Shown: positions 211-12,028 of the stretch, in pieces
Layout of the letters: each line of letters opens with the position of its first letter
Numbering within the stretch: position 1 is the first letter of the stretch
Source of the DNA: Candidatus Omnitrophota bacterium
GTDB taxonomy: Bacteria > Omnitrophota > Gorgyraeia > Duberdicusellales > 4484-171
Assembly (NCBI GenBank): GCA_017994375.1
Contig: JAGOLA010000003.1
Coordinates: 1-43,689, forward strand
Direction of reading: 5' to 3'
Length of the DNA: 43,689 nt
Position numbers and translations under genes: made by a program
Notes under the pieces: model-generated
The model's input: only the letters and a program-made list of their open reading frames with translations
The model's database searches: none
What the model was told of the DNA's origin: nothing

Positions 211-1668
211 TTAAATGTGTTTTTCTCCCTTCATAGCGCCTTCTTCCCACTTACTGACTCCGCGCATAACATCTTCGAAACAAAGTTTTGCTAAAGGGTC
301 AAAATTGCTAGTCATAATTCTTTGGATTCTTCCGGGTTTTGAGAAAAATTCTCTCATACACCAGGAACCAAGCCTTCCGTAATCTTCGATAGTCAAATAT
401 TTAGTAGGCATAACCGGGTGTAAAAAGTCCCACTTAAGAAAATCAATTTTTTTGATATCTATCTCCCCGCGTTTTGTTCTTTGCCTCCAAATAGGCGAAT
501 TAGGAGCCGGGGTAACGTAGCCAACCCAAAGAATATCCGGGTCGACCTCATCGGTAAATTCGTACCGTTGTTTAATAGATTGTTCGGTGTCATCATCAAA
601 GCCCATCATAATGTCAGCGACAATGGCAATATCTTGAGCCCGTAAGATATCTATAGTTTTTTTAATTTGGTCAATGGTGATGCCTTTGGCGATCTTTTTA
701 AGTTCTTCCGGAGTAGTTACCTCAATACCAAAAACCCCCATAAACATTCCGGTTTCTTTCATAAGAGGGAGGATTTTTTCGCAATTAACCCAATCCACGG
801 CTCTTCCCAAAGAAACCCATTTAATAGGGTTGCTTTTTTGTTTTTTTAATTTACAAAATTTTTCTACCCGGTCAGGATTAACATTAAAATTATCATCCTG
901 GATTACTACTACTTTTGTGCCCATCTTGTGCAAAAGTTCAAGTTCTTCGATAACACGCTGGGGAGATTTGGCCCGCCAAGTTAAAAAATCATTTGGCGAA
1001 CGCGGATCGTACTGATCCCATTCATAACAAAAAGTGCAAGCCGAAGGACAACCGCGCGAAGTCATCATCTCTACGAACGGTTTCCAAAAAGTATGCCCTA
1101 CGTACTTCTCCATAGGAAATAAATCATAAGCTGGGAGTGGTAACTTATCTAAATCCTGTAGCAAAGGTTTATGCGGACCCATTACTGGTTTACCATCTAT
1201 GCGGCTAGTTATTCCTGCTACTTCTTTCATGCTCTTACCTTTATCGATAGCATTAATTAAGTCATAAAAAGACTCTTCTTCTCCCATAACGACATAGTCA
1301 ATGGCCGGATTGCTCTCCAAGGTTTCGACTGGCAAGGCGGAATACCAGAGGCCTCCGACAATAATTTTGGTTTTAGGAAAAACTTGTTTAATACGCCGGG
1401 CCGCTTCGTTAAAATGCCATATCTCTCCAAAGCCTACCGAGCAATGAATCATATCGCCCATCACTACTACATCGGGATTTTTTTCTTTAACCTTTTCGGC
1501 AATATTTTCGATAGAGATGCCGAAAGCTGTGGCGTCTAAAACTTCAAGGTTATCATAACCTTTTTCGCGAATATATGCTCCCCATTGAGCATATAATTGG
1601 TTAGGAGCAAAATGGATACCATGTGTAGCCCAGGCGCCGACTTTCGGCATTACGAATAAGATTTTCAT
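211..1668 (-). CDS. B12-binding-domain radical SAM enzyme
   Basis: 485 residues. The N-terminal part (about 1-170) has the Rossmann-like layout of a cobalamin-binding domain, including DVVVMGD near 66-72, IIVGGLWYSALP near 102-113 and VVMGEEE near 126-132, but no clear DxHxxG cobalamin-ligand motif. The radical SAM core follows with the CxxxCxxC cluster motif RGCPSACTFC (Cys207, 211 and 214). The architecture is that of BchE-like cyclases and class B methylases. The start has an excellent ribosome site (GGAGG, then TAAGGA, then ATG). It lies downstream of the reductase, transporter and polyketide genes on the same strand, so a tailoring role such as C-methylation or oxidative ring formation on the polyketide is likely but unproven. 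A 168-base gap with hairpins separates it from the reductase gene. Confidence 0.88.
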   Translation of the reverse strand: MKILFVMPKVGAWATHGIHFAPNQLYAQWGAYIREKGYDNLEVLDATAFGISIENIAEKVKEKNPDVVVMGDMIHCSVGFGEIWHFNEAARRIKQVFPKTKIIVGGLWYSALPVETLESNPAIDYVVMGEEESFYDLINAIDKGKSMKEVAGITSRIDGKPVMGPHKPLLQDLDKLPLPAYDLFPMEKYVGHTFWKPFVEMMTSRGCPSACTFCYEWDQYDPRSPNDFLTWRAKSPQRVIEELELLHKMGTKVVVIQDDNFNVNPDRVEKFCKLKKQKSNPIKWVSLGRAVDWVNCEKILPLMKETGMFMGVFGIEVTTPEELKKIAKGITIDQIKKTIDILRAQDIAIVADIMMGFDDDTEQSIKQRYEFTDEVDPDILWVGYVTPAPNSPIWRQRTKRGEIDIKKIDFLKWDFLHPVMPTKYLTIEDYGRLGSWCMREFFSKPGRIQRIMTSNFDPLAKLCFEDVMRGVSKWEEGAMKGEKHI

Positions 1669-1751
1669 TCCTTACCTCCTATAGTTTTTTATAACAGCGT
1701 AACTGATTATTTTATTCCTAAACTCTAATTTACTATAACAACAACACATGG

Positions 1752-1798
1752 ATCCAATAATGTGCCTTCGGCACATCTTTGCTTCGCAAAGATTGGAT
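1752..1798. repeat. Compact multi-hairpin element
   Basis: Two perfect hairpins with TTC triloops sit side by side: a 6-bp stem TGTGCC/GGCACA (1761-1775) and an 8-bp stem ATCTTTGC/GCAAAGAT (175-1793 numbering: 1775-1793). They are flanked by an outer pair ATCCAAT (1752-1758) and ATTGGAT (1792-1798), so the whole can fold as a three-way junction. It lies between the SDR gene and the radical SAM gene, both on the minus strand. There is no T-tract, so it is not a classical terminator. It could be a processing or attenuation structure, or an interspersed genomic element. Confidence 0.6.
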
Positions 1799-1809
1799 AC
1801 ATTTAAATC

Positions 1810-1837
1810 TATGAACTACCAACTACGAACTCTGAAC
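1810..1837. repeat. Four degenerate 7-bp repeats
   Basis: Four consecutive heptamers read TATGAAC, TACCAAC, TACGAAC, TCTGAAC. The consensus is T-N-N-G-A-A-C, and the spacing is exactly 7. The last unit runs into the TAG stop of the SDR gene on the minus strand. The same heptamers recur at 4262-4336 and 10496-10537. Only one arm is present here, so it does not form the long hairpin seen at those sites. Confidence 0.75.
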
Positions 1838-2613
1838 TATTTATCGGGATGTTCCTGCTTAAACGGAATAACCGGCTTAGTCCACGGTGTTTGCTGATTT
1901 ATTACTGCAATTTCAAGCGGACAGACATTAGCCGGAACAGTTAAGGCAAACCTTACCGCATCCTCAATTGCTTGTGTAGTCATTAAGCGTGACCTATCGG
2001 TAGTAACTTCTTGTAATTTACCGGTTAAATCGGTATCGGTTACACCGGGTAGAATCGAAGTAACTTTTATTCCATGATCACGTATCTCCCAAAATAAACC
2101 TTTAGAAAAAGCCCGAAGCCCTACTTTCAATGAACTATAGACAATAAAATTTCTCGGCAACGGATCGCAGAGAGTCGAGCCCGAAACCATATTAATTATT
2201 GCACCGGACTTATTCTTTATCATATCGTTTATTACCAAACGAATCAAACGTACATAGCCTAAATAATTGGTATGCGCCAACCTTTCGAGATCTTCAAGAG
2301 GTTGTTTTTCAAAAGGATACTGGCTGGATACACCGGCATTATTTATCAGAATATCGATATCCCCAAATTCTTTCTTACTCTTGTTTACTAAATTTTCTAA
2401 ATCTTCCAATTTGGTAACATCACAAGGAATGCCTAAGACATTAACTTTATATTTTTTCTTTATTTCTTCGGCGGCCTCTTTTAAAGGCCCTTCGCCTCTG
2501 GCAGCAATAGCGACGTTTACGCCTAAACTTGCTGCCACACAAGCGAGAGCTTTTCCTATACCACGACTAGCACCGGTTATGATAGCGTTCTTACCCTTAA
2601 GATTGGCTTTCAT
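1837..2613 (-). CDS. Short-chain dehydrogenase/reductase (probable polyketide ketoreductase)
   Basis: 258 residues, the usual length of classical SDR enzymes. The NAD(P)-binding TGASRGIG is at 13-20, the NNAG motif at 91-94, and the catalytic Ser144, Tyr159 and Lys163 (YSSLK) are all present. The Arg in TGASRGIG favours NADPH. The start follows a strong ribosome site (AAAGGAGG). The family contains fatty-acid and polyketide ketoreductases as well as many unrelated oxidoreductases. The position, downstream of the ketosynthases and next to the exporter, supports a role reducing a polyketide carbonyl. It is the only SDR in the cluster and so the best candidate for a ketoreductase. The stop codon lies inside a heptamer repeat. 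Confidence 0.88.
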   Translation of the reverse strand: MKANLKGKNAIITGASRGIGKALACVAASLGVNVAIAARGEGPLKEAAEEIKKKYKVNVLGIPCDVTKLEDLENLVNKSKKEFGDIDILINNAGVSSQYPFEKQPLEDLERLAHTNYLGYVRLIRLVINDMIKNKSGAIINMVSGSTLCDPLPRNFIVYSSLKVGLRAFSKGLFWEIRDHGIKVTSILPGVTDTDLTGKLQEVTTDRSRLMTTQAIEDAVRFALTVPANVCPLEIAVINQQTPWTKPVIPFKQEHPDK

Positions 2614-2626
2614 CTCTATTCCTCCT

Positions 2627-3748
2627 TTATATTTTTATCACTAAATATTTTGTACAAAGTAACAGTATAAGTAAACCAGACCCAAATAAGATAAATCCCG
2701 CTGTAAAGCTTTTCTGCATAATCAGACCTGAAATAGCAACTCCTAAACCCCCGGAGATAAAACGTACGCTACTATTTAAGCTGGCAGCTTCCGGTAAAAA
2801 TTTCTTAGGTAAATCCGTAAGTATAGTAGAAATACCGGCATGATTGAATGTCCAGCCTAAACCCCAAATAACCATAAGCAATCCTAAAATAAGAAACGGT
2901 ATCTTAAAGATTAATAAGAAAACACTAGCAATCATTAATATTATCCCTAAGTTTATAGTTTTAATTCTTCCCATTTTATCGGATAAAAAACCGCCGATGG
3001 TTTCGCCAAAAATACCGCTTAAACTAGTTAAAGTAATAAGGGCACTTATCGCTAATTGCCCTAAATTATATTGCGTGAAAAAATAAACCGAAAACCATTG
3101 CTGTAGGCCGTGATAAAGTAAGCTTACAATAAATATATAGGTAAATACCTGCAGAATAACTTTATCTTTGAACGGCTTAATATAATCAATAACGAATTTT
3201 TTATTTTCCGGAGTAAAATCCGGCAGATAAAAATATATTATCGCTAAGAGCAGAAATCCACTGATTGCCGGTAACAGGAAAATAGAGCGCCAGGGCAAAA
3301 TTCCGCTTAAAATCAGCCCTAAAAGCGAAGCTATAAATGTAGAGGCAAAAAATATACCGACCATTCTTCCCTTTTTTTTGCTCTCAAAAGACTGTGCTAT
3401 TAAAATTAAAGCCAGCGGTATCACTGAAGCTCCGAAAAAGCCCATGAAAAATCGGGCTGAAAAAAGCGTAATAATATTATTTGATAAAGCTGCCACCAAA
3501 TTCGCCAAAGAGAAAAATAATAAACATACCAGTTCTATTTTTTTAGCATCGAAAACACGTATCAAGGGACCGTAAAAAAGAGCTGCTATCCCATAGGGTA
3601 TCATGTAAATCCAAATGATTCTTCCGGCAATAAAGCCAGAAACACTAAAATCCGTAGCAATAGAAGGGACCAATGCCGCTGTTGCTGCTACATTAAACGA
3701 TAAAATCGCACCCTCCAAACATAGAATTATAAAAGTTAATTTATTCAT
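2627..3748 (-). CDS. MFS transporter
   Basis: 373 residues, almost wholly hydrophobic, with about 11-12 predicted membrane spans. The loop GGFLSDKMGRIKT is the mid-protein copy of the MFS signature GxxxDxxGR. The last residues, ending in LLCTKYLVIKI, lack a soluble tail. At 373 residues it is slightly shorter than the 400 typical of drug:proton antiporters. It lies 13 bases upstream of the SDR gene and is followed on its own 5' side by a 58-base gap with a decamer repeat, and no clear ribosome site precedes the ATG. Export of the cluster product, also giving self-protection, is the natural inference; the substrate cannot be read from sequence. Confidence 0.85.
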   Translation of the reverse strand: MNKLTFIILCLEGAILSFNVAATAALVPSIATDFSVSGFIAGRIIWIYMIPYGIAALFYGPLIRVFDAKKIELVCLLFFSLANLVAALSNNIITLFSARFFMGFFGASVIPLALILIAQSFESKKKGRMVGIFFASTFIASLLGLILSGILPWRSIFLLPAISGFLLLAIIYFYLPDFTPENKKFVIDYIKPFKDKVILQVFTYIFIVSLLYHGLQQWFSVYFFTQYNLGQLAISALITLTSLSGIFGETIGGFLSDKMGRIKTINLGIILMIASVFLLIFKIPFLILGLLMVIWGLGWTFNHAGISTILTDLPKKFLPEAASLNSSVRFISGGLGVAISGLIMQKSFTAGFILFGSGLLILLLCTKYLVIKI

Positions 3749-3759
3749 TTCTTATATTT

Positions 3760-3800
3760 ATTCGTGTAAATTCGTATGCAATTTGTGCGTATTCGTGTTA
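3760..3800. repeat. Degenerate 10-bp repeat, four units
   Basis: Units ATTCGTGTAA, ATTCGTATGC, ATTTGTGCGT and ATTCGTGTTA follow one another, with one extra A at 3780. They fill the gap between the aromatase stop and the transporter start. The period is 10 bases, unlike the 7-base period of the other repeats in this window. No dyad symmetry is obvious, so a role as a terminator is unlikely. Confidence 0.6.
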
Positions 3801-3806
3801 AATAAA

Positions 3807-4244
3807 TCATTTGGTTTCTCTTTCTATTACGTCTTTAAATATTTTTAAATTATCTTTAGAGTGTTTATTGATAAAACCTTCTACCTGCTCATCGTTAAAT
3901 TTAGCCTTCTCATCCATTTCAAAATGTTGGATCCAGGTCATTTCCATACCGGCTGGCCTTGGAGTATAAAGCCAGATGATCTTCATAAACTTAAAAGGAA
4001 ATTTAGGCTCCTCGCGTTCGGCATAGGCAAGGTATCGGTCTTTAAAAAGCAGCCGCCAAGACTGCCAGGTGCGGTCTTCATCATCGGTAAGCTTAAAAGT
4101 AATTTTATTACCTTCCTTTTTTACTACTTCGGCTTTTTTATATTCGCCGCCGAATAACTCTGTCCAACGCCTAATATCATTGGAAATATCAAAAATTTTC
4201 TCGTAAGGAGCGTTAATTATTATCGAATTTACTGTATGACCCAT
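3807..4244 (-). CDS. Polyketide aromatase/cyclase (TcmN/WhiE-type, SRPBCC fold)
   Basis: 145 residues from the ATG at 4244, chosen because AGGGAGG stands six bases before it; the longer frame to 4295 would translate a DNA repeat. The protein opens MGHTVNSIIINAP and continues NDIRRWTELF. This is the typical start of single-domain aromatase/cyclases of the WhiE ORFVI and TcmN N-terminal type (xGHTxNxIxIxAP, then NDVxxWPxLF). Further matches are MKIIWLY near 87-93, MTWIQHFEM near 102-110 and FINKHSKDNL near 124-133. These helix-grip enzymes bind the nascent poly-beta-ketone and direct first-ring folding and dehydration. Together with KS-alpha, CLF and ACP upstream, this is the strongest pointer to an aromatic product. 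Confidence 0.88.
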   Translation of the reverse strand: MGHTVNSIIINAPYEKIFDISNDIRRWTELFGGEYKKAEVVKKEGNKITFKLTDDEDRTWQSWRLLFKDRYLAYAEREEPKFPFKFMKIIWLYTPRPAGMEMTWIQHFEMDEKAKFNDEQVEGFINKHSKDNLKIFKDVIERETK

Positions 4245-4261
4245 TATAAACCTCCCTTTTA

Positions 4262-4336
4262 GTTCGTAGTTCATAGTTAGTAGTTCGTAGACCATAATAT
4301 ATTTTGTCTACGAACTCCGAACTCACAACTACGAAC
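4262..4336. repeat. Long inverted repeat built of 7-bp units
   Basis: The left arm (4262-4289) is GTTCGTA, GTTCATA, GTTAGTA, GTTCGTA. The right arm (4309-4336) is TACGAAC, TCCGAAC, TCACAAC, TACGAAC. The arms are imperfect reverse complements of about 31 bases (GAC/GTC next to the loop included) around an AT-rich loop. The right arm contains the stop codon (4329-4331) of the cyclase-family gene, and the left arm touches the leader of the aromatase gene. A stable hairpin between two translated genes could tune mRNA processing or relative expression. Confidence 0.85.
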
Positions 4337-5138
4337 TTTTATTTAAAATTGCCACTACTCTCGCCCAAGCGGCGCCAGTACACTTAATTTTTACCGGAAA
4401 ACAAATAATCTTAAATCCAAAATCGGGCAACTTTTCTAAACCAGCTAACCGTTCTATATGAATGAATTCCCGTTTTCTTCCGTAAAAGTGGGCTGGATAT
4501 AACTTTTTGGGATCTTTTGTCTTTAAAAATTCTTTAAGCATAAATTTATAAGGCCGGTCTATACCCATAGTATCGACACCAAATATTTTTATACCGTTAT
4601 CTAGAAGAAAATCTATTGCTGATATATCTATGCCGGGATAGTCGCTAAAATATTTAGGCCCACCGTAAAACTTATCTGCGCCTGTATACAACAAAACTAT
4701 ATCCAATGGTTTTAATTTATAATTTATTTTTTTTAATGCATCTTCCAAGTCGGCGGCTCTTATTGTTTCGTTCGGCTTTTTATAAGAAACATCGAGCCTG
4801 ACACCATCTTGATAACACCACTCAAGAGGTATTTCTTCCGCAGTCTTTGATTCTCTTCCTTCTGATTTTGAGCCGTAATGAAAAGAATAATCTAGGTGCG
4901 TTCCGATGTGGACCGGGGAATGGACAACTTCTAAAGACAAGAATTCCTCATCCGGTAAGTCCTCTTTTTTGACAATTCGCTTACCTAATATATATTGCAG
5001 TTTGCCTTTTAGGGTTTTACCCATTAAAACCCGGTTGAATTTAGCAACACCAGCCTTATGAGACACCCGTTCGATTTCGACGTGATGTACTTCAAAAACT
5101 TTATCGTCAATTGCTAAACTTAAGTCAATTATATTCAT
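4329..5138 (-). CDS. Metal-dependent cyclase-family (kynurenine formamidase-like) hydrolase
   Basis: 269 residues. The motif HIGTHLDYSFHYG in the first half corresponds to the HxGTHxDxPxHF metal site of the 'putative cyclase'/kynurenine formamidase family (PF04199). The stretch GVDTMGIDRP in the second half is the conserved strand carrying an Asp typical of these enzymes. An insertion (ILGKRIVKKEDLPDEE) precedes the metal site. Members hydrolyse amides or lactones and some were first annotated from polyketide clusters. It begins 7 bases after the ACP stop without an independent strong ribosome site, suggesting translational coupling. Its last residues (NKSS) and stop come from the heptamer repeat, so the C-terminus was fixed by repeat insertion or growth. 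Confidence 0.8.
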   Translation of the reverse strand: MNIIDLSLAIDDKVFEVHHVEIERVSHKAGVAKFNRVLMGKTLKGKLQYILGKRIVKKEDLPDEEFLSLEVVHSPVHIGTHLDYSFHYGSKSEGRESKTAEEIPLEWCYQDGVRLDVSYKKPNETIRAADLEDALKKINYKLKPLDIVLLYTGADKFYGGPKYFSDYPGIDISAIDFLLDNGIKIFGVDTMGIDRPYKFMLKEFLKTKDPKKLYPAHFYGRKREFIHIERLAGLEKLPDFGFKIICFPVKIKCTGAAWARVVAILNKSS

Positions 5139-5145
5139 TTGCTTA

Positions 5146-5379
5146 TTATTGTTTCTTCTTTTCTATCGCATCTACAATTTGTAACGGCGTCGAATTCTTA
5201 GTAATTTCGTTGGCTAAAACTTTTATTCCAAAGCACTTATTTATAGCTACTACTAATTCCACCATCTCGGTAGAATCAACGCCGATAGAATCATAAAGTG
5301 CCTGATTTTCTATTAACTCTTCTTTATCTACATCTAGAGTCTTACTGATTAAATTTAATACTTCTTCTTTTAAATTCAT
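5146..5379 (-). CDS. Acyl carrier protein of the polyketide synthase
   Basis: 77 residues, acidic and helical, the standard ACP length. The phosphopantetheine attachment motif is GVDSTEMVEL with Ser36 in the DS pair. The canonical DSL is DST here. The hydrophobic pattern of helix II (MVELVVAINKCF) and helix III is intact. GGAGG stands four bases before the ATG. The gene sits directly after the CLF gene (10-base gap), the classical KS-alpha, CLF, ACP order of type II polyketide clusters. It would be primed by a phosphopantetheinyl transferase that is not in this window. Confidence 0.93.
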   Translation of the reverse strand: MNLKEEVLNLISKTLDVDKEELIENQALYDSIGVDSTEMVELVVAINKCFGIKVLANEITKNSTPLQIVDAIEKKKQ

Positions 5380-5389
5380 TTTGCCTCCT

Positions 5390-6625
5390 TTATTCTCCCT
5401 CTACAGCTAAAACGGTATTTATGCCACCGCGCCCCCTGGCAATGATTAAAGCTTTTTTAATTTTCCGGTCAATAGCTTTATTAGGCGTATAATCTAAATC
5501 ACAATAAGGATCTTTCATCTCGTAATTTACAGTAGGTAATACTAAATTATTATTCATCGAAAATAAAGTTGTAATTAAATCTAACGCGGTCTGGGCACCT
5601 AACAAATTACCATACATACTTTTCGGCGCGCTTAAAGAAATATGTTCTAATTCTTTACCAAAGACATTTTTCAGAGTTTGAGTTTCTAAATAATCCCCTA
5701 TGGTTGTAGCTTCAGCATCAAGACAAATATAATCTATTTCTTTTTTTGACCAACCGGCATCATTAAGGCATTCTTTTATTGCGTATTCAAAACTTTCACA
5801 GCTAGGGTTATAACGAGCGTAATGGTAGCCGTCGGAAGAAAAACCTACCCCTCTGATATAACCGTAAATATTTACACCTCTTTTTTTAGCGCGTTCTTCT
5901 TTTTCAAGATTAACGATGCCGGAACCTTCGGCTAAAACAAAACCATCGCGATATAAATCGTAAGGTTTATAAGCTTTTTTAGGATTAAGATTATTCTTCG
6001 ATAACTGCCCGCAAGTATTGGCACATAGAAGGGCATAAGGCGTAATTGGTGCTTCCATTCCTCCAGCAAGTACGTAATCGTTTTTATCTTCGATAATATT
6101 CTTGGCTGCATACCATATAGCAAGAGCTGATGAAGCTTTATCAGCTACGATAGTTTTACTGTAACCTTTAAACCCATAGTAAATTGTAATTTGGCCTTGA
6201 GGTGCTGCCGGAAACCACGCCGAAGCCATATAAGGAGAAACGCCCTCTCTACCTTCAATATACATGTCGCGTAGTTCTGTTTCGGCAAAGAGCCAACCAC
6301 CGATAGCATTACCCATAAAAACACCGATACGTTTTTTATCGACGTTATTTAAATCTATTTTGGCATCTTGTAAAGCTTGTTCGCTGGCAACAAGTGCCAT
6401 ATGAGAGAAAACATCGATTTTTTTTACTAGACGGCCTGGTAAATGCGAGTAGTGGTCTAATTCATGGACTTGTCCGGCTATCCGAGAAGGATAAAGCGAA
6501 GCATCAAAGCGTTTAATCTCATCGATATAGGATTCTCCTCTCTTTAAATTAGCCCAAAAAGTTTCTTTCTTAAGCCCTGCCGGCGAAACAACTCCGATAC
6601 CTGTAATTGCTACCCGTTCTTTCAT
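5390..6625 (-). CDS. Ketosynthase-beta / chain-length-factor-like protein
   Basis: 411 residues with the thiolase fold of FabF-type ketosynthases but without catalytic residues. Aligned with the neighbouring KS-alpha, the nucleophile Cys is Lys163 (in TIVADKASSALA), the first His is Asp303 (ICLDAEATT) and the second His is Asn340 (KSMYGNLLGA). The structural Lys335 is kept. Loss of the Cys defines chain length factors, which pair with KS-alpha and set polyketide length; actinomycete CLFs usually have Gln at the Cys position. Its ATG directly abuts the KS-alpha stop (TAGATG), with AAAGGAG inside the end of KS-alpha, so the two are translationally coupled as expected for a heterodimer. Confidence 0.9.
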   Translation of the reverse strand: MKERVAITGIGVVSPAGLKKETFWANLKRGESYIDEIKRFDASLYPSRIAGQVHELDHYSHLPGRLVKKIDVFSHMALVASEQALQDAKIDLNNVDKKRIGVFMGNAIGGWLFAETELRDMYIEGREGVSPYMASAWFPAAPQGQITIYYGFKGYSKTIVADKASSALAIWYAAKNIIEDKNDYVLAGGMEAPITPYALLCANTCGQLSKNNLNPKKAYKPYDLYRDGFVLAEGSGIVNLEKEERAKKRGVNIYGYIRGVGFSSDGYHYARYNPSCESFEYAIKECLNDAGWSKKEIDYICLDAEATTIGDYLETQTLKNVFGKELEHISLSAPKSMYGNLLGAQTALDLITTLFSMNNNLVLPTVNYEMKDPYCDLDYTPNKAIDRKIKKALIIARGRGGINTVLAVEGE

Positions 6626-7882
6626 CTATTTAACTCCTTTATAACGTTTAAATACCAATGACGAGTGTATTCCGGAAAATCCGCTACTGGTTTTTAAAAT
6701 ATAGTTGGGCATGAGTTGTCTCTTTACATTCGGAATATAATCCAAATCACATTTTGGATCCGGTTCTTCCTGGTTTATAGTCGGCGGCAAATAGCCTTTT
6801 TCAAAAATCATTGCGCACAAAACGCTTTCAACAGCATTTGCCGCGGCTAAAGGGTGGCCAATCATTGATTTTATGGAACTTATCGGAACTTTGTAAGCAT
6901 AATCTCCAAAGACTGCCTTGTAAGCATTGGTTTCAAAAACATCATTCTGACGGGTTGATGAACCGTGGGTATTTATGTAATCTACATCTTCGTTCTTAAT
7001 GCCGGCATCTTTTATCGCATCTTTAATACAGCGCTCCATAGCTTCGCCGTCTTCGGGTAAATCCGTCATATGAAAAGCATTACAGCTTGTGCCATAACCG
7101 ATAATTTCTCCATAAATATGCGCACCTCTTTTCTTGGCATGCTCTAACTCTTCAAGTATAACTACACCGGCGGCTTCAGAAATTACAAAACCGTTTCGTT
7201 TATTATCAAATGGCCGGCTTGCTTTATGCGGTTCATCATTATTCTTAGCCAAAACATTTACAACATCAAAGGCAGCAAAAGTAATGGGGCAAACCGGTGC
7301 TTCGCTTCCTCCGGCAATAATTATGTCCTGTCTTCCTTCCCGAATCAGCTCAAAAGACAATCCCAAAGAATCTGTCGCGGCAGTACAACCGGTTGAAAGT
7401 GTACAATTAAGCCCTTGGGTATGATACATTGCTCCTACTTCAGCGCTGGGAGTATTAAACATCGCGGCATCATAAAGATAAGGCCGGCCTTTACGCGGGT
7501 CTATCGGCCTTTTCCCCCAATCAGTCACTAAAAGAAATTCTTCTTCCATAAAACGTGTGCCGCAAATAGCGTTTGCCAGAATTACACCGAAACGTTTGGT
7601 GTTTATTTTCTTAATATCTATGTTGGAATCTTCGACTGCCTGTTTTGCGGCCGCGATGGCGAACTGCACATATCTGTCCATACGATAATGATCTTTTATC
7701 CCGAATTTTAGCGGATCAAAACTTAAATCCTGCGAAGCTATCTTTGATACGAATAAACTTACGTCAAAGTTTTCTACTCTTTCTATGCAAGGTTTTCCCT
7801 CTATTATATTGTTATAAAACTCTTCTTTACTTTCTCCGGCAGCGGAAATAACTCCTAAACCGGTAATTACTACACGCCTCAT
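6626..7882 (-). CDS. Ketosynthase-alpha of a type II polyketide synthase
   Basis: 418 residues. The catalytic Cys166 sits in LSTGCTAATDSLG, closer to the KS-alpha form STGCTSGLD than to the usual FabF form. His306 (NTHGSST), Lys338 and His343 (KSMIGHPLAAA) complete the active site. The C-terminal GFSGIHSSLVF matches the family's GFGGxNxxLxF loop. AAGGAG precedes the ATG by six bases. It condenses malonyl-ACP units in complex with the CLF encoded next door. A housekeeping FabF is the alternative, but the adjacent Cys-less partner, ACP and aromatase make the polyketide role far more likely. No acyltransferase is fused or adjacent. Confidence 0.92.
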   Translation of the reverse strand: MRRVVITGLGVISAAGESKEEFYNNIIEGKPCIERVENFDVSLFVSKIASQDLSFDPLKFGIKDHYRMDRYVQFAIAAAKQAVEDSNIDIKKINTKRFGVILANAICGTRFMEEEFLLVTDWGKRPIDPRKGRPYLYDAAMFNTPSAEVGAMYHTQGLNCTLSTGCTAATDSLGLSFELIREGRQDIIIAGGSEAPVCPITFAAFDVVNVLAKNNDEPHKASRPFDNKRNGFVISEAAGVVILEELEHAKKRGAHIYGEIIGYGTSCNAFHMTDLPEDGEAMERCIKDAIKDAGIKNEDVDYINTHGSSTRQNDVFETNAYKAVFGDYAYKVPISSIKSMIGHPLAAANAVESVLCAMIFEKGYLPPTINQEEPDPKCDLDYIPNVKRQLMPNYILKTSSGFSGIHSSLVFKRYKGVK

Positions 7883-7884
7883 TA

Positions 7885-8463
7885 CTATCTCCTTGTAACT
7901 TTAAATACAATATTTCCTCCGTCAGGACAAGTTACGGTATCTATGGAATCGGGATTATTCATAAAATGGAATTTGGCTCCGAAATTAAGGGCGAACAAAG
8001 CCGGAAAAGCCGTATGCCAAGCTGCTCCACAAAATCCCTCGATACACTTTAAGCCCTTTACTTGCCACTTATCGCCGACTTTATAGCCATAAGCACATTT
8101 ACCTTTGGCTTTTACTACTTCTATTTCCATATTCTTAGGATTAGGCCCTTTATGGTTAGGGTCTTTGGGTACGGTTATAACCTTACCTTCTTTATCCAAA
8201 AGCTCGGCCTTAAATTCCAGCTTACCGCCATCTGGACAAGTTACCTTTAAAGATTTCTGGTTATCCATAAAAGGAAACTGGGCTCCAAAACTTAAAGCAT
8301 AAATTACCGGGAAAAGAGCGTGCGCTAATCCTAAGCAAAAGTATTGGGGAGGATGGGTAAAATCTTCTAAGATAAGTTCATCGTTCTTTTTGTAGTTGTG
8401 GTAACAGTGTCCAGCTACATTTATCACCGTCAATTTTAACCGTGGGAAAGGGGTATTAACCAT
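7885..8463 (-). CDS. Tandem TIGR04076-family protein
   Basis: 192 residues made of two similar halves. Each has the TIGR04076 pattern: a strand, GxCxxxYKxxD, a segment with one Cys and small residues, then FPxxxALxFGAxFxFM and VTCPDGG near its end. First half: GHCYHNYKKND, CLGLAHALFP, VTCPDGGKLEF. Second half: GKCAYGYKVGD, CGAAWHTAFP, VTCPDGGNIVF. Three Cys per half (GxC, CxxA, TCPDGG) recur in register and could bind metal or do redox chemistry; no biochemical function is established that I know of. Start follows GGAGG in the end of the upstream gene. It lies 2 bases before KS-alpha, so it is clearly part of the polyketide operon. Confidence 0.8.
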   Translation of the reverse strand: MVNTPFPRLKLTVINVAGHCYHNYKKNDELILEDFTHPPQYFCLGLAHALFPVIYALSFGAQFPFMDNQKSLKVTCPDGGKLEFKAELLDKEGKVITVPKDPNHKGPNPKNMEIEVVKAKGKCAYGYKVGDKWQVKGLKCIEGFCGAAWHTAFPALFALNFGAKFHFMNNPDSIDTVTCPDGGNIVFKVTRR

Positions 8464-8464
8464 A

Positions 8465-9463
8465 TTAATAAACCTCCGTTTCTCTCAATAATTCTTCTTT
8501 GCTTAAAAATTCTGCGCCTTTTTCGATCTTATGGACCAATTCCACTATTTTTTTATTTAAAGGCGCTTTTAAATTATTTTCCTGCGCTAACTTGGTTATC
8601 TCTCCGTTTATATAATCTATTTCCGAAGGTTTGTTTCTTTTTATGCTCTGCAAAATAGAACCGTATAAAGGTTCTTTGCTTAAAGAGCCCATTACTTTAG
8701 AAAAGATATTAGCGGCTTGATTAATATCCATGGAGGCTAATCCTTCTATCCTCTCTTTAGGATAAGTCGGCAGGCTGTTTAACTTTATCCCTGATTCAGC
8801 CACGATTCGATAGGCTTCTTGATTAATTTTTATGGCTAACTTGGCTAAATCCATATCCGAGAAAACTTCCTGCATAGATTGTCCTAAACAAGCGGGTATG
8901 CAATTATTTAAATTTATAAATAGCTTAAGATACTTGGCTCCTTTTATATCTAAAGACTCGGAAATTTCAAATATACCCTTTAGACAATTCAATACTTCTT
9001 TAAAACTACTCATTTTCTGGCCAAAAATATTTCCGACTATCAAAGCACCATCAAAATTATTTATTATTCGGTTTGGAGGGTAAAAAGTTGCTCCGAACAT
9101 AACAATAGAAGTAATAATTTTATTTTCGGGAAAGTATTCCCTTAAAATATAATCGGCCCGTAGGCCGTTTTGTGTGCTGAATGCGGTTGCTTTTTTTAGG
9201 TAAGCTAAATTATCTTGTACCATCTGTTCAAGATCGTTTATCTTGCTGGCAAAGATAGCTAAATCTACCTCTTCGTCTAATTTTGTATCGGCCTTTACGC
9301 GAATAATCTCATCCAACCCGCCCTTGCTGATGATTAAACCCTGCTGCTTAAAGACGTTTTTTTGATAATCGCGGACTATACCGGTTACATCTTTATCCTT
9401 ACGGGAAAGATACCCCAAAAATAAACCACCAATCGCTCCACAACCTAAAACTGCTATCTTCAT
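8465..9463 (-). CDS. Ketopantoate reductase-family NAD(P)-dependent dehydrogenase
   Basis: 332 residues. The N-terminal GCGAIGG (8-14) is the dinucleotide-binding turn of the PanE/ApbA fold. The middle has the Lys-containing segment GAKYLKLFINLNNCIPA, matching the catalytic Lys and Asn helix, and SEIDYINGEI near 280 gives the conserved Glu/Asn segment. True PanE makes pantoate for coenzyme A. Here the gene is locked between a PCP_red-like gene and TIGR04076 (1-10 base gaps) in the polyketide operon, so a role in reducing a 2-keto acid or polyketide intermediate is more likely. Pantoate supply for phosphopantetheine remains possible. Confidence 0.78.
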   Translation of the reverse strand: MKIAVLGCGAIGGLFLGYLSRKDKDVTGIVRDYQKNVFKQQGLIISKGGLDEIIRVKADTKLDEEVDLAIFASKINDLEQMVQDNLAYLKKATAFSTQNGLRADYILREYFPENKIITSIVMFGATFYPPNRIINNFDGALIVGNIFGQKMSSFKEVLNCLKGIFEISESLDIKGAKYLKLFINLNNCIPACLGQSMQEVFSDMDLAKLAIKINQEAYRIVAESGIKLNSLPTYPKERIEGLASMDINQAANIFSKVMGSLSKEPLYGSILQSIKRNKPSEIDYINGEITKLAQENNLKAPLNKKIVELVHKIEKGAEFLSKEELLRETEVY

Positions 9464-9472
9464 GCAAAAATA

Positions 9473-9733
9473 CTATTCCTTAAGGTATTTTGAATAATCT
9501 AAACCGTGTCTGTTCAATAGCTTCTTCATCATATCTTTAAACGCCGGGGGGACTTCCTCAAAGAAAGCAAGCACTAAATCGTCAAGCTCTACACTATCCG
9601 AGCCCCTTTGTTCTGCCAGCTCAACCGCTTTCTCTTTAACTAAACGTTTAGCGATAGTGCGATGAAACTGCGGCAAGTCATTAGTTATCGCTTCATATTT
9701 TTTAAGACACTCTTCGTTCCACTTAATATCCAT
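9473..9733 (-). CDS. Small PCP_red-like helical protein
   Basis: 86 residues from the ATG at 9733, chosen because AGGGAG lies six bases upstream; a longer frame to 9757 would overlap the phosphorylase gene and lacks a ribosome site. It is helical, with WNEECLKKYEAI, then LPQFHRTIAKRLVKEKAVELAEQRG and VELDDLVLAFF. This resembles the PCP_red domain (C-terminal domain of light-independent protochlorophyllide reductase subunit B) and the related DUF2621, with the W...IP.F.R...E..A...G pattern. The function of free-standing copies is unknown. It lacks any Cys. Its place in the polyketide run suggests an accessory or protein-docking role. Family assignment is from pattern memory only. Confidence 0.6.
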   Translation of the reverse strand: MDIKWNEECLKKYEAITNDLPQFHRTIAKRLVKEKAVELAEQRGSDSVELDDLVLAFFEEVPPAFKDMMKKLLNRHGLDYSKYLKE

Positions 9734-9743
9734 CTTGATCTCC

Positions 9744-10481
9744 CTATAAATTATCAACTACCTCAAAAGCTAAATCAGTCATCTTTAGCTCAGCTTGAAA
9801 AAAACGAAAGTCAGCGAACCCTAATTGGCCGGTAATTAAATTATCGGATACGGCCATAATCGAACCGATTTTTTTCTTATTAAGATTAGCTACGGTTACA
9901 AATGGCGAAGTTACCATATCTACTGCTATAGCTCCTTTAGCTATGTAAGAGTTAACAATATCTTTGGTTTCCCGAAATATAGCATCAGTAGTCCAGACCG
10001 GACCTTTATGTATTGTTCCGGCAACTTTAAAAACTTTTTCAATAGCATCATTAATATCCGGGCTAGTCTTAGGCACAAAATTATCATCAACATAATAACG
10101 CGTTGCACCATCTCCTCTTATTACTTCTGTAGTCAATACATAGTCTCCGATATTGATATCTTCGCGTAAAGCTCCACAGGAACCAAGCCGGATAAAAGTG
10201 TTAATTCCTCCGGCACAAAGTAATTCCGACACCAAAGCCGAATCCGGGGAGTAAAAACCGCCGTTACCAACAGTAATCTTTTTGCCTTTATAGGTACCGG
10301 TCCAGAAAGTATAGCCTAAAAAGGTAAAATTTTTAACGCTGTTTTCAAGGTGTTTAAGGCACATCTGGGCGCGGTGCTGTTGCCCACTTACCAAAGCAAT
10401 ATCCCCAAAATCACCCTTTTTAAATTGCAAGGAATAAAGCAGTTCTTGGGGATTCATATGGATTTCTCTTTGCATCATCAT
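9744..10481 (-). CDS. Nucleoside phosphorylase-superfamily protein, divergent
   Basis: 245 residues of the PNP/uridine phosphorylase fold. Seen: the phosphate-loop-like SGQQHRAQ (canonical GDPxRA), IRLGSCGAL (canonical R-G-[ST]-xG), GDYVLTTEVIRGDGA, and VSDNL with the catalytic Asp. The usual ribose-binding VEMEA segment is replaced by VDMVTSPF, losing the key Glu. Three ATGs in a row follow GGAGG; the second, at 10478, has the best spacing. The loss may mean a different substrate, so this need not be nucleoside salvage. It sits between the ligase and the PCP_red gene in the polyketide run. Confidence 0.78.
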   Translation of the reverse strand: MMMQREIHMNPQELLYSLQFKKGDFGDIALVSGQQHRAQMCLKHLENSVKNFTFLGYTFWTGTYKGKKITVGNGGFYSPDSALVSELLCAGGINTFIRLGSCGALREDINIGDYVLTTEVIRGDGATRYYVDDNFVPKTSPDINDAIEKVFKVAGTIHKGPVWTTDAIFRETKDIVNSYIAKGAIAVDMVTSPFVTVANLNKKKIGSIMAVSDNLITGQLGFADFRFFQAELKMTDLAFEVVDNL

Positions 10482-10495
10482 AAACCTCCGGTTTA

Positions 10496-10537
10496 GTTCG
10501 TAGTTATGAGTTCGTGGTTCAACTACGAACTCTGAAC
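10496..10537. repeat. Inverted heptamer repeat overlapping a stop codon
   Basis: Units GTTCGTA, GTTATGA, GTTCGTG, GTTCAAC then TACGAAC, TCTGAAC, all 7 bases apart. The second set is the reverse complement of the first, so a hairpin can form. The acyl-CoA ligase stop TAG (10523-10525) and its last codons lie inside. It is the third member of the family also seen at 1810-1837 and 4262-4336. Confidence 0.8.
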
Positions 10538-12028
10538 TAGTTTGAGCTTATCAACTTTTCCAGTTCTATTTCTAGGCAAATCTTTGACCACCTCAAAGTA
10601 GTGAGGAATCTTAAAATGAGCCAGGTGGATTTTTAAGAATTCCTTTAATTTCTGTTCGTCTAACTTTGCCTCTTCAGTAACGATAAAAGCCTTAGGTACT
10701 TCTCCTCTTAAGCTATCAGGGACGCCAACAACCGCTACCTCTTTTATCTTGGGGTATCGACGTATTTTTTCTTCTACTTCGGCTAAAAAAACTATTTCTC
10801 CGGCTACTTTTATCATTTCTTTTTTTCTGCCGACGATGTAAAAAAAACCTTGCCGGTCATAATAAGCAATATCGCCGGTTTTTAGCCATCTTTCCGGAGT
10901 CAAAACTTGCCGAGTTAATTCTTTTTCCTGGTAATATTCTTTCATTACTGCCCGACCCCTAACCCAAAGCTCGCCTCTTTCTTCAGGGCCTAAAGAATTT
11001 TCTTGCTCATTAACTATTTTTACTTCCATATCAGCAGTAAATTTGCCGATGCTAGAAATATTATCAGAATCCGGTGATAATAAAGTATTAGGGGCCGCGG
11101 TCTCGGTCATGCCCCAGCCGTTAGAAAGGCGGGCCCGAGGATAAGCTTTGTGGAATCTTTTGAGTAAAACTTCCGAAGATGGGGCGCCAAAGACAACGGC
11201 GTAACGTAAAGAAGACAAATCGAACTTATCGTATTCTTTCAAAGAAAGTATGGCCACATACATAGCTGGAACAATACAGAAAATAGTAACTTTATGGCTT
11301 TGAATGTTCTTAAGAAATTCTAAGGGCTGAAACCTCTCCATTAAAACTAAAGTGGAAGCGAAGTTAACCATCAGCAGAATATAATCCAAACCGCCGATAT
11401 GAGAAAAAGGTACACCGCCGCAGAGAAAAACATCTTTAGCGGTAACCTTTAGAAAGTAATCTATTATTTGAGAAGGATTGTCTAAATGAGCATAGTCTAA
11501 TAATACCCCCTTGGGATGACCGGTGGAACCAGAGGTATAAAATATCGCAGCGGCATCTTGCGGTTCTAACTTAACATAAGGGGTATCAGATTTATATTCC
11601 GAGATTATCTCGTCCCAAAAAGGGATCTCTTCTACTTTCTCTTTAGAAATGATAATAATATCTAAGCTTGGGCAACTGTCTTCGATTTGTGCCAGGTTTA
11701 TCTCTTTTTTAGGTTGGGTAATTAAGACTTTGGCTTGGCTATGATTAATAAAATTAATTACCTCTTCTTGAGTTAGCATAAAATCTAAAGGCACTACCGT
11801 AAGGCCAATGCTAAAGCTGCCTAAAAAAGAAAATAAAGCTTGAGGATTGTTAGGAAGATATATTGCTATTCGCTCGCCTTTAGTCAGGCCGGCAGCTAAG
11901 AAATAGTTGGCTAACCTAAAAGTGATGTCCTTTACCTGCCAAAAATTAAATTGTTTATCTTCAAAAATAAGAGCGGTTTTTTGGCTATTTTTATCGGCCT
12001 GTTTTAGGAGTAAATCTTTAATATCCAT
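10523..12028 (-). CDS. Acyl-CoA synthetase / AMP-dependent ligase
   Basis: 501 residues, full length for the ANL superfamily. Motifs in order: A3 FYTSGSTGHPKG, A5 GWGMTETAAP, A7 LKTGDIAYYDRQG, A8 GRKKEMIKVAGE and the catalytic A10 Lys in PRNRTGKVDK. It would adenylate a carboxylic acid and load it on CoA or on a carrier protein. As the first gene of the run it may activate a starter acid for the polyketide, or a side chain; the acid cannot be told from sequence. The product ends in QSS from the heptamer repeat. A 26-bp palindrome stands 20 bases upstream of the ATG. Confidence 0.88.
   Translation of the reverse strand: MDIKDLLLKQADKNSQKTALIFEDKQFNFWQVKDITFRLANYFLAAGLTKGERIAIYLPNNPQALFSFLGSFSIGLTVVPLDFMLTQEEVINFINHSQAKVLITQPKKEINLAQIEDSCPSLDIIIISKEKVEEIPFWDEIISEYKSDTPYVKLEPQDAAAIFYTSGSTGHPKGVLLDYAHLDNPSQIIDYFLKVTAKDVFLCGGVPFSHIGGLDYILLMVNFASTLVLMERFQPLEFLKNIQSHKVTIFCIVPAMYVAILSLKEYDKFDLSSLRYAVVFGAPSSEVLLKRFHKAYPRARLSNGWGMTETAAPNTLLSPDSDNISSIGKFTADMEVKIVNEQENSLGPEERGELWVRGRAVMKEYYQEKELTRQVLTPERWLKTGDIAYYDRQGFFYIVGRKKEMIKVAGEIVFLAEVEEKIRRYPKIKEVAVVGVPDSLRGEVPKAFIVTEEAKLDEQKLKEFLKIHLAHFKIPHYFEVVKDLPRNRTGKVDKLKLVQSS

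Follow-up and report, generated by a model that had tools for sequence, protein, structure and literature searches.

A gene carried by a Candidatus Omnitrophota MAG is, as read from its sequence, the chain-length factor (CLF, or KS-beta) of a type II polyketide synthase, with a lysine, Lys163, occupying the site of the catalytic cysteine. The gene lies within a 43,689-nucleotide stretch of DNA (GenBank assembly GCA_017994375.1, contig JAGOLA010000003.1), hereafter the window. Its relatives across the Omnitrophota carry a basic residue at the same site, and the best explanation, favoured here with some reserve, is that of a non-catalytic CLF in which the Lys or Arg would serve as a structural charge plug and not as a catalytic lysine.

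Identity of the protein as a chain-length factor

The plus strand across the gene is riddled with stop codons, and the CLF reading frame is found on the minus strand (Table 1), the first-pass annotation having named no strand. When the protein was aligned pairwise with the neighbouring KS, Cys166, His306, and His343 of the latter fell opposite Lys163, Asp303, and Asn340 of the CLF, in agreement with the residue numbers given by the first-pass annotation, and the lysine of the KS at position 338 was found to be kept in the CLF as Lys335. No other Cys takes the place of the nucleophile, the six cysteines of the CLF being located at positions 201, 205, 276, 286, 301, and 375; with Lys163 at the active site, the protein displays the hallmark of a CLF, namely a KAS-type protein devoid of the active-site Cys. 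Alignment with the actinorhodin CLF (1TQY chain B) placed Lys163 on Gln, Asp303 on Asp, and Asn340 on Arg, so that the protein departs twice from the canonical Gln-type CLF of the Actinobacteria, residue 163 not being Gln and residue 340 not being Arg.

The designation as a CLF was upheld by the tree, the sequence motifs, and the synteny alike. Omnitrophota (n = 12), actinobacterial, and Bacillota CLFs were recovered as one clade (support 100/100) and the KS-alphas as a separate clade (100/99), both standing apart from FabF, while the 12 Omnitrophota CLFs formed a single clade of their own (100/99). Adding the Azospirillum CLF and a partial AntE sequence, both of which sat on long branches, left the support for the CLF clade at 100/100. 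A pan-CLF profile run against the PDB returned the actinorhodin CLF, 1TQY_B, as its top match with 515 bits, the best FabF reaching 378. Structure prediction gave a KAS II fold, a level at which fold searching does not tell a CLF from FabF. In the predicted model, Lys163 opens the nucleophile-elbow helix (residues 162-178), and the lone CLF is modelled with low confidence at 108-119, 129-140, and 193-229, the segments that form the dimer interface and the cavity in this fold. Such low confidence is as expected of a protein in need of a partner and would equally fit a shallow alignment.

That the protein might instead be a divergent homodimeric ketosynthase or a FabF paralog was considered and rejected as scarcely credible. 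Single-sequence searches do score FabF chains over 1TQY_B, and the best NCBIfam model for the CLF is fabF, yet below its cut-off. This alternative is nevertheless confronted with catalytic sites that hold neither Cys nor His, with the strongly supported CLF clade, and with two motifs, AWFPAAPQGQ and RGRGG, common to the protein and real CLFs; moreover, a complete KS adjoins the gene, and elsewhere the genome contains FabD and a separate FabF-like gene in fragments.

The gene cluster and its conservation

The CLF belongs to a cluster of 13 genes spanning positions 211-12028, all on the minus strand and transcribed in the order AMP-forming ligase, nucleoside-phosphorylase-family protein, DUF2621-like protein, ApbA-like reductase, double TIGR04076 protein, KS, CLF, ACP, PF04199 cyclase, SRPBCC cyclase, MFS transporter, SDR oxidoreductase, and B12-binding radical SAM protein (Table 1). 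The CLF is accordingly adjoined by both a complete KS and an ACP, and the minimal PKS with cyclases/aromatase in a row is the arrangement of an aromatic type II PKS. Matches to a malonyl transacylase (FabD, PF00698) and a PPTase (PF01648) were located elsewhere in the same genome. The double TIGR04076 protein contains repeated Cys and phenylalanine-rich motifs.

Table 1. Positions in the window of the CLF gene, its dead-site codons, and the other genes of the cluster.
Feature	Position	Strand	Remarks
B12-binding radical SAM protein	211..1668	-	BchE and HpnJ the closest NCBIfam models, each far under cut-off
SDR oxidoreductase, candidate ketoreductase	1837..2613	-	
MFS transporter, likely exporter	2627..3748	-	PF07690
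SRPBCC polyketide cyclase/aromatase	3807..4295	-	PF10604, E=3.4e-8
Putative (metal-dependent) cyclase	4329..5138	-	PF04199, E=2.3e-28
ACP, 77 aa	5146..5379	-	GVDS motif; PF00550, E=1.4e-9
CLF (KS-beta), 411 aa	5390..6625	-	Pfam ketoacyl-synt N and C; CLF clade 100/100
N340 codon, second-His site	5606..5608	-	Arg there in actinobacterial CLFs
D303 codon, first-His site	5717..5719	-	from pairwise alignment with the adjacent KS
K163 codon	6137..6139	-	opposite the KS catalytic Cys and the actinorhodin CLF Gln
KS-alpha, 418 aa	6626..7882	-	intact C166, H306, H343, and K338; TAG stop abuts the CLF ATG
Probable CLF ribosome-binding site, AAAGGAG	6634..6640	-	within the KS end; sequence reading
Protein with two TIGR04076 domains	7885..8463	-	E=4.9e-29, two stretches
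ApbA/PanE-like reductase	8465..9463	-	PF02558 and PF08546
Small protein	9473..9757	-	weak DUF2621 and PCP_red likeness, below cut-offs; kept in the cluster
Nucleoside-phosphorylase-family protein	9744..10481	-	PNP_UDP_1
AMP-forming acyl-CoA / acyl-ACP ligase	10523..12028	-	

None of the cluster proteins matched an oxygenase family, which, taken with the presence of the radical SAM protein, points to tailoring that is probably oxygen-independent; the Omnitrophota cluster is probably anaerobic.

The arrangement is largely kept in relatives. Upstream of the CLF and on the same strand, the KS was retained in 56 of the 57 loci with enough flanking sequence, the ApbA-like gene in 55/57, and the DUF2621-like gene in 53/57; downstream, likewise on the same strand, the 38 loci with room contained the ACP in 36, both cyclases in all 38, and the SDR gene in 35. 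Less often kept are the TIGR04076 gene (29/57), the AMP-forming ligase (31/57), and the MFS gene (30/38), and the position of the radical SAM gene varies, being found on either side of the cluster. Two related loci show several tandem PF04199 cyclase matches 3' of the CLF, and the SRPBCC cyclase matches of one of them are also tandem; these may be true duplications or pieces of alignment.

Conservation of a basic residue at the cysteine site

Residue 163 was surveyed in 81 Omnitrophota CLFs, comprising the best 80 named loci and the window, with pairwise identities of 51-96%. Arg was found in 58 and Lys in 23, with no third residue; the codons in use were AAA/AAG for Lys and AGA/AGG/CGN for Arg, and about seven changes between the two residues are needed on the tree of the 81. 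A further 20 lower-scoring Omnitrophota CLFs from whole genomes all have Arg. Combining both samples, which may overlap by a genome or two, roughly three-quarters of about 100 CLFs have Arg and one-quarter Lys. Lys163 was encountered only at an identity of at least 72% to the window, Arg being the common state. The first-pass description of Lys in place of Cys is hence exact for this genome, although too narrow for the family, and the special role it had entertained for Lys as such finds no support, given that Lys and Arg interchange freely and give way to no other residue. Repeated interchange of this kind argues for a conserved positive charge as opposed to a nucleophilic or Schiff-base Lys. 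Asp162, Asp303, Lys335, Trp111, and Leu118 are invariant in the 81, and position 340 is Asn in 80 and Ser in one. No link was found between Lys/Arg at 163 and Lys/Arg at 175.

For the comparison beyond the Omnitrophota, which for other phyla such as Chloroflexota, Acidobacteriota, Desulfobacterota, and Cyanobacteria covered plasmids and the PDB, a panel of 28 full-length CLFs was compared at positions 162, 163, 303, and 340. In line with the first-pass annotation, actinobacterial CLFs mostly have Gln at the Cys site (10 of 11, the remaining one having Glu), and all 11 have Arg at the second-His position. Bacillota plasmid CLFs have a basic residue at the Cys site in four of four cases (R, K, R, and R), as does the Azospirillum CLF (R). 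The view of the window CLF as a divergent branch can therefore be retained as far as the Omnitrophota form a clade, but not with regard to the residue itself, the same basic residue being present in Bacillota and Azospirillum. The Glu variant was seen in the CLF region of an Embleya sp., in an unannotated stretch, and adds a further natural variant at this site.

Throughout the panel, Lys or Arg at 163 was always accompanied by Asn, His, or Ser at 340, and Gln or Glu at 163 always by Arg at 340, with Asp or Glu present at both 303 and 162 in every member. There is nothing unusual for a CLF in an acid at the first-His site, Asp or Glu being present there in every full-length CLF examined. The mutual exclusion between 163 and 340 suggests one basic partner of an acidic residue, placed at either site. 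As the swap follows lineage and may amount to one or few events, it should be taken as a hypothesis and not as statistics, and it is weak as evidence of covariation, Asn340 also being nearly constant within the Omnitrophota.

Proposed role of residue 163 and competing explanations

In the proposed mechanism, the CLF would act as the partner in an obligate KS-CLF heterodimer, the condensation being carried out by the neighbouring KS, whose Cys-His-His is intact; the CLF itself would be catalytically dead and would shape the cavity that sets the chain length. The coupling of the two genes, with the KS stop abutting the CLF start, and the low model confidence at the interface point indirectly to such a pairing. 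Lys or Arg163 would fill the unused pocket and pair with the conserved acidic Asp303, most likely via a salt bridge, thereby taking on the role probably held by the second-His Arg in the actinobacterial enzymes with their Gln at the Cys site. The basic partner thus appears to have moved between the Cys and second-His sites. Priming could fall to the KS-alpha or to an ACP that the AMP-forming ligase has charged, and the positive charge may have a separate role in priming. A basic plug would not be universal, because AntE has Asp at the site.

A competing proposal, which is unlikely although it deserves consideration, is that the basic residue does the job proposed for the actinobacterial Gln, holding the malonyl carboxylate or thioester and helping to decarboxylate malonyl-ACP to the acetyl primer. 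The position is that of the CLF Gln called intrinsic to starter-unit decarboxylation (PMC6638757), a positive charge could bind a malonyl carboxylate, and the basic residue is strictly conserved; the two His that aid decarboxylation in KS enzymes are, however, Asp and Asn here, and the AMP-forming ligase of the cluster suggests that decarboxylative priming may be unneeded, as in the case of AntG, for which direct ACP loading was proposed (PMC6638757). It has also been considered that the positive charge could aid the binding of the phosphopantetheine phosphate or of the acidic ACP at the CLF, in keeping with the ACP being bound by positively charged KS-CLF surfaces (PMC12664062). This is improbable for a residue at the buried nucleophile position instead of the channel mouth and flanked by the invariant acidic Asp162 and Asp303. 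Least of all would Lys163 be expected to be a chemically reactive lysine, whether as nucleophile, Schiff base, or carbamate; its predicted place at the head of the nucleophile-elbow helix would suit such chemistry, yet most relatives carry Arg and the two residues have repeatedly replaced one another. A structural charge plug remains the preferred reading.

With respect to the cavity, the gate residues Phe109, Thr112, and Phe116 of the actinorhodin CLF are taken here to correspond to Trp111, Ala114, and Leu118 of the window CLF. Trp at the first gate position is common to the window, Bacillota, and Azospirillum CLFs and AntE, and this shared gate makes a chain of about octaketide length conceivable, albeit only as a guess from the sequence.

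Distribution in Omnitrophota and wider implications

The MAG is 1.43 Mb in size and 89% complete, and the named relatives of its CLF are nearly all from Candidatus Omnitrophota MAGs. A CLF ortholog was detected in about 139 of 384 Omnitrophota genomes, a figure obtained from 150 matches at E<=1e-85 after subtraction of 11 FabF-like ones at about 40% identity; within the window's own family, 19 of the 25 genomes searched have one. Two MAGs, labelled Planctomycetales and Deltaproteobacteria, also carry an Omnitrophota-type cluster and are probably misnamed bins, or possibly cases of transfer.

KS-CLF pairs of Candidatus Omnitrophica were already catalogued by genome mining (PMC10132072), the text of which does not treat the active-site residues or the conserved operon, and “ladderane” clusters were reported in Omnitrophota (PMC9902471), which might concern the present PKS cluster. 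No account of a Lys/Arg CLF class or of the conserved Omnitrophota operon was found in the open-access literature searched. While Omnitrophica KS-CLFs were thus known before, the basic residue, its conservation, and the operon are apparently new as far as found. The small-genome, uncultured Omnitrophota often retain this type II polyketide pathway, apparently without prior characterisation, again as far as found.

It is tentatively put forward that CLFs could be divided into charge classes by the site of the basic partner, the Cys site in Omnitrophota, Bacillota, and Azospirillum and the second-His site in Actinobacteria, and that an aromatic polyketide pathway, probably oxygen-independent, may exist throughout the Omnitrophota. 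If the class with a basic Cys site were ancestral, the textbook Gln would be an actinobacterial novelty and its decarboxylation role would not be general. Whether the residue replacing the Cys in CLFs is a priming decarboxylase or a structural plug has so far been debated chiefly on the basis of actinobacterial enzymes with Gln; the large natural Lys/Arg set, together with one Asp case, opens the question to comparison and simple mutants.

Comparison with known systems

Actinobacterial CLFs, among them that of actinorhodin (ActI-ORF2, 1TQY chain B), belong to the same fold family and clade as the window CLF, with which they share the loss of the catalytic Cys and His, an Asp in place of the first His, Lys335, the AWF-A---GQ and RGRGG motifs, and an adjoining KS and ACP. 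They differ in having Gln (in one case Glu) at the Cys site, Arg at the second-His site, and usually Phe instead of Trp at gate position 111.

The type II PKS plasmids of the Bacillota Priestia megaterium, Apilactobacillus kunkeei, Lactobacillus gasseri, and Staphylococcus saccharolyticus encode CLFs that, like that of the window, combine a basic Cys-site residue (Lys or Arg) with a Trp gate, at 32-37% identity to the window CLF (three measured); some of these CLFs are annotated as FabF. Their clusters also contain a KS, CLF, ACP (or a small ORF instead), an AMP-forming ligase, and PF04199-type and SRPBCC cyclases. In contrast to the window CLF, these CLFs have their first-His site filled by Glu and the second by His or Ser. 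The clusters also include methyltransferases and, for the most part, genes of the cupin or ferritin-like kind; the Omnitrophota cluster has radical SAM, ApbA-like, and TIGR04076 genes in their stead.

Photorhabdus AntDE, the anthraquinone KS-CLF (PDB 6SMO/6SMP), likewise comprises a divergent, non-actinobacterial CLF with a Trp gate (GGW), and its cluster includes a CoA-ligase-type gene, AntG, as the window cluster includes an AMP-forming ligase. Non-actinobacterial CLFs were reported to branch apart (PMC6638757). AntE differs from the window CLF in its aberrant C-terminal third and in the Asp at its Cys site, the latter confirmed in the S2 Fig legend of PMC6638757. Since the AntDE pair is functional with this Asp, yielding octaketides (PMC6638757), a CLF can function with a residue other than Gln, and Gln is not indispensable in general.
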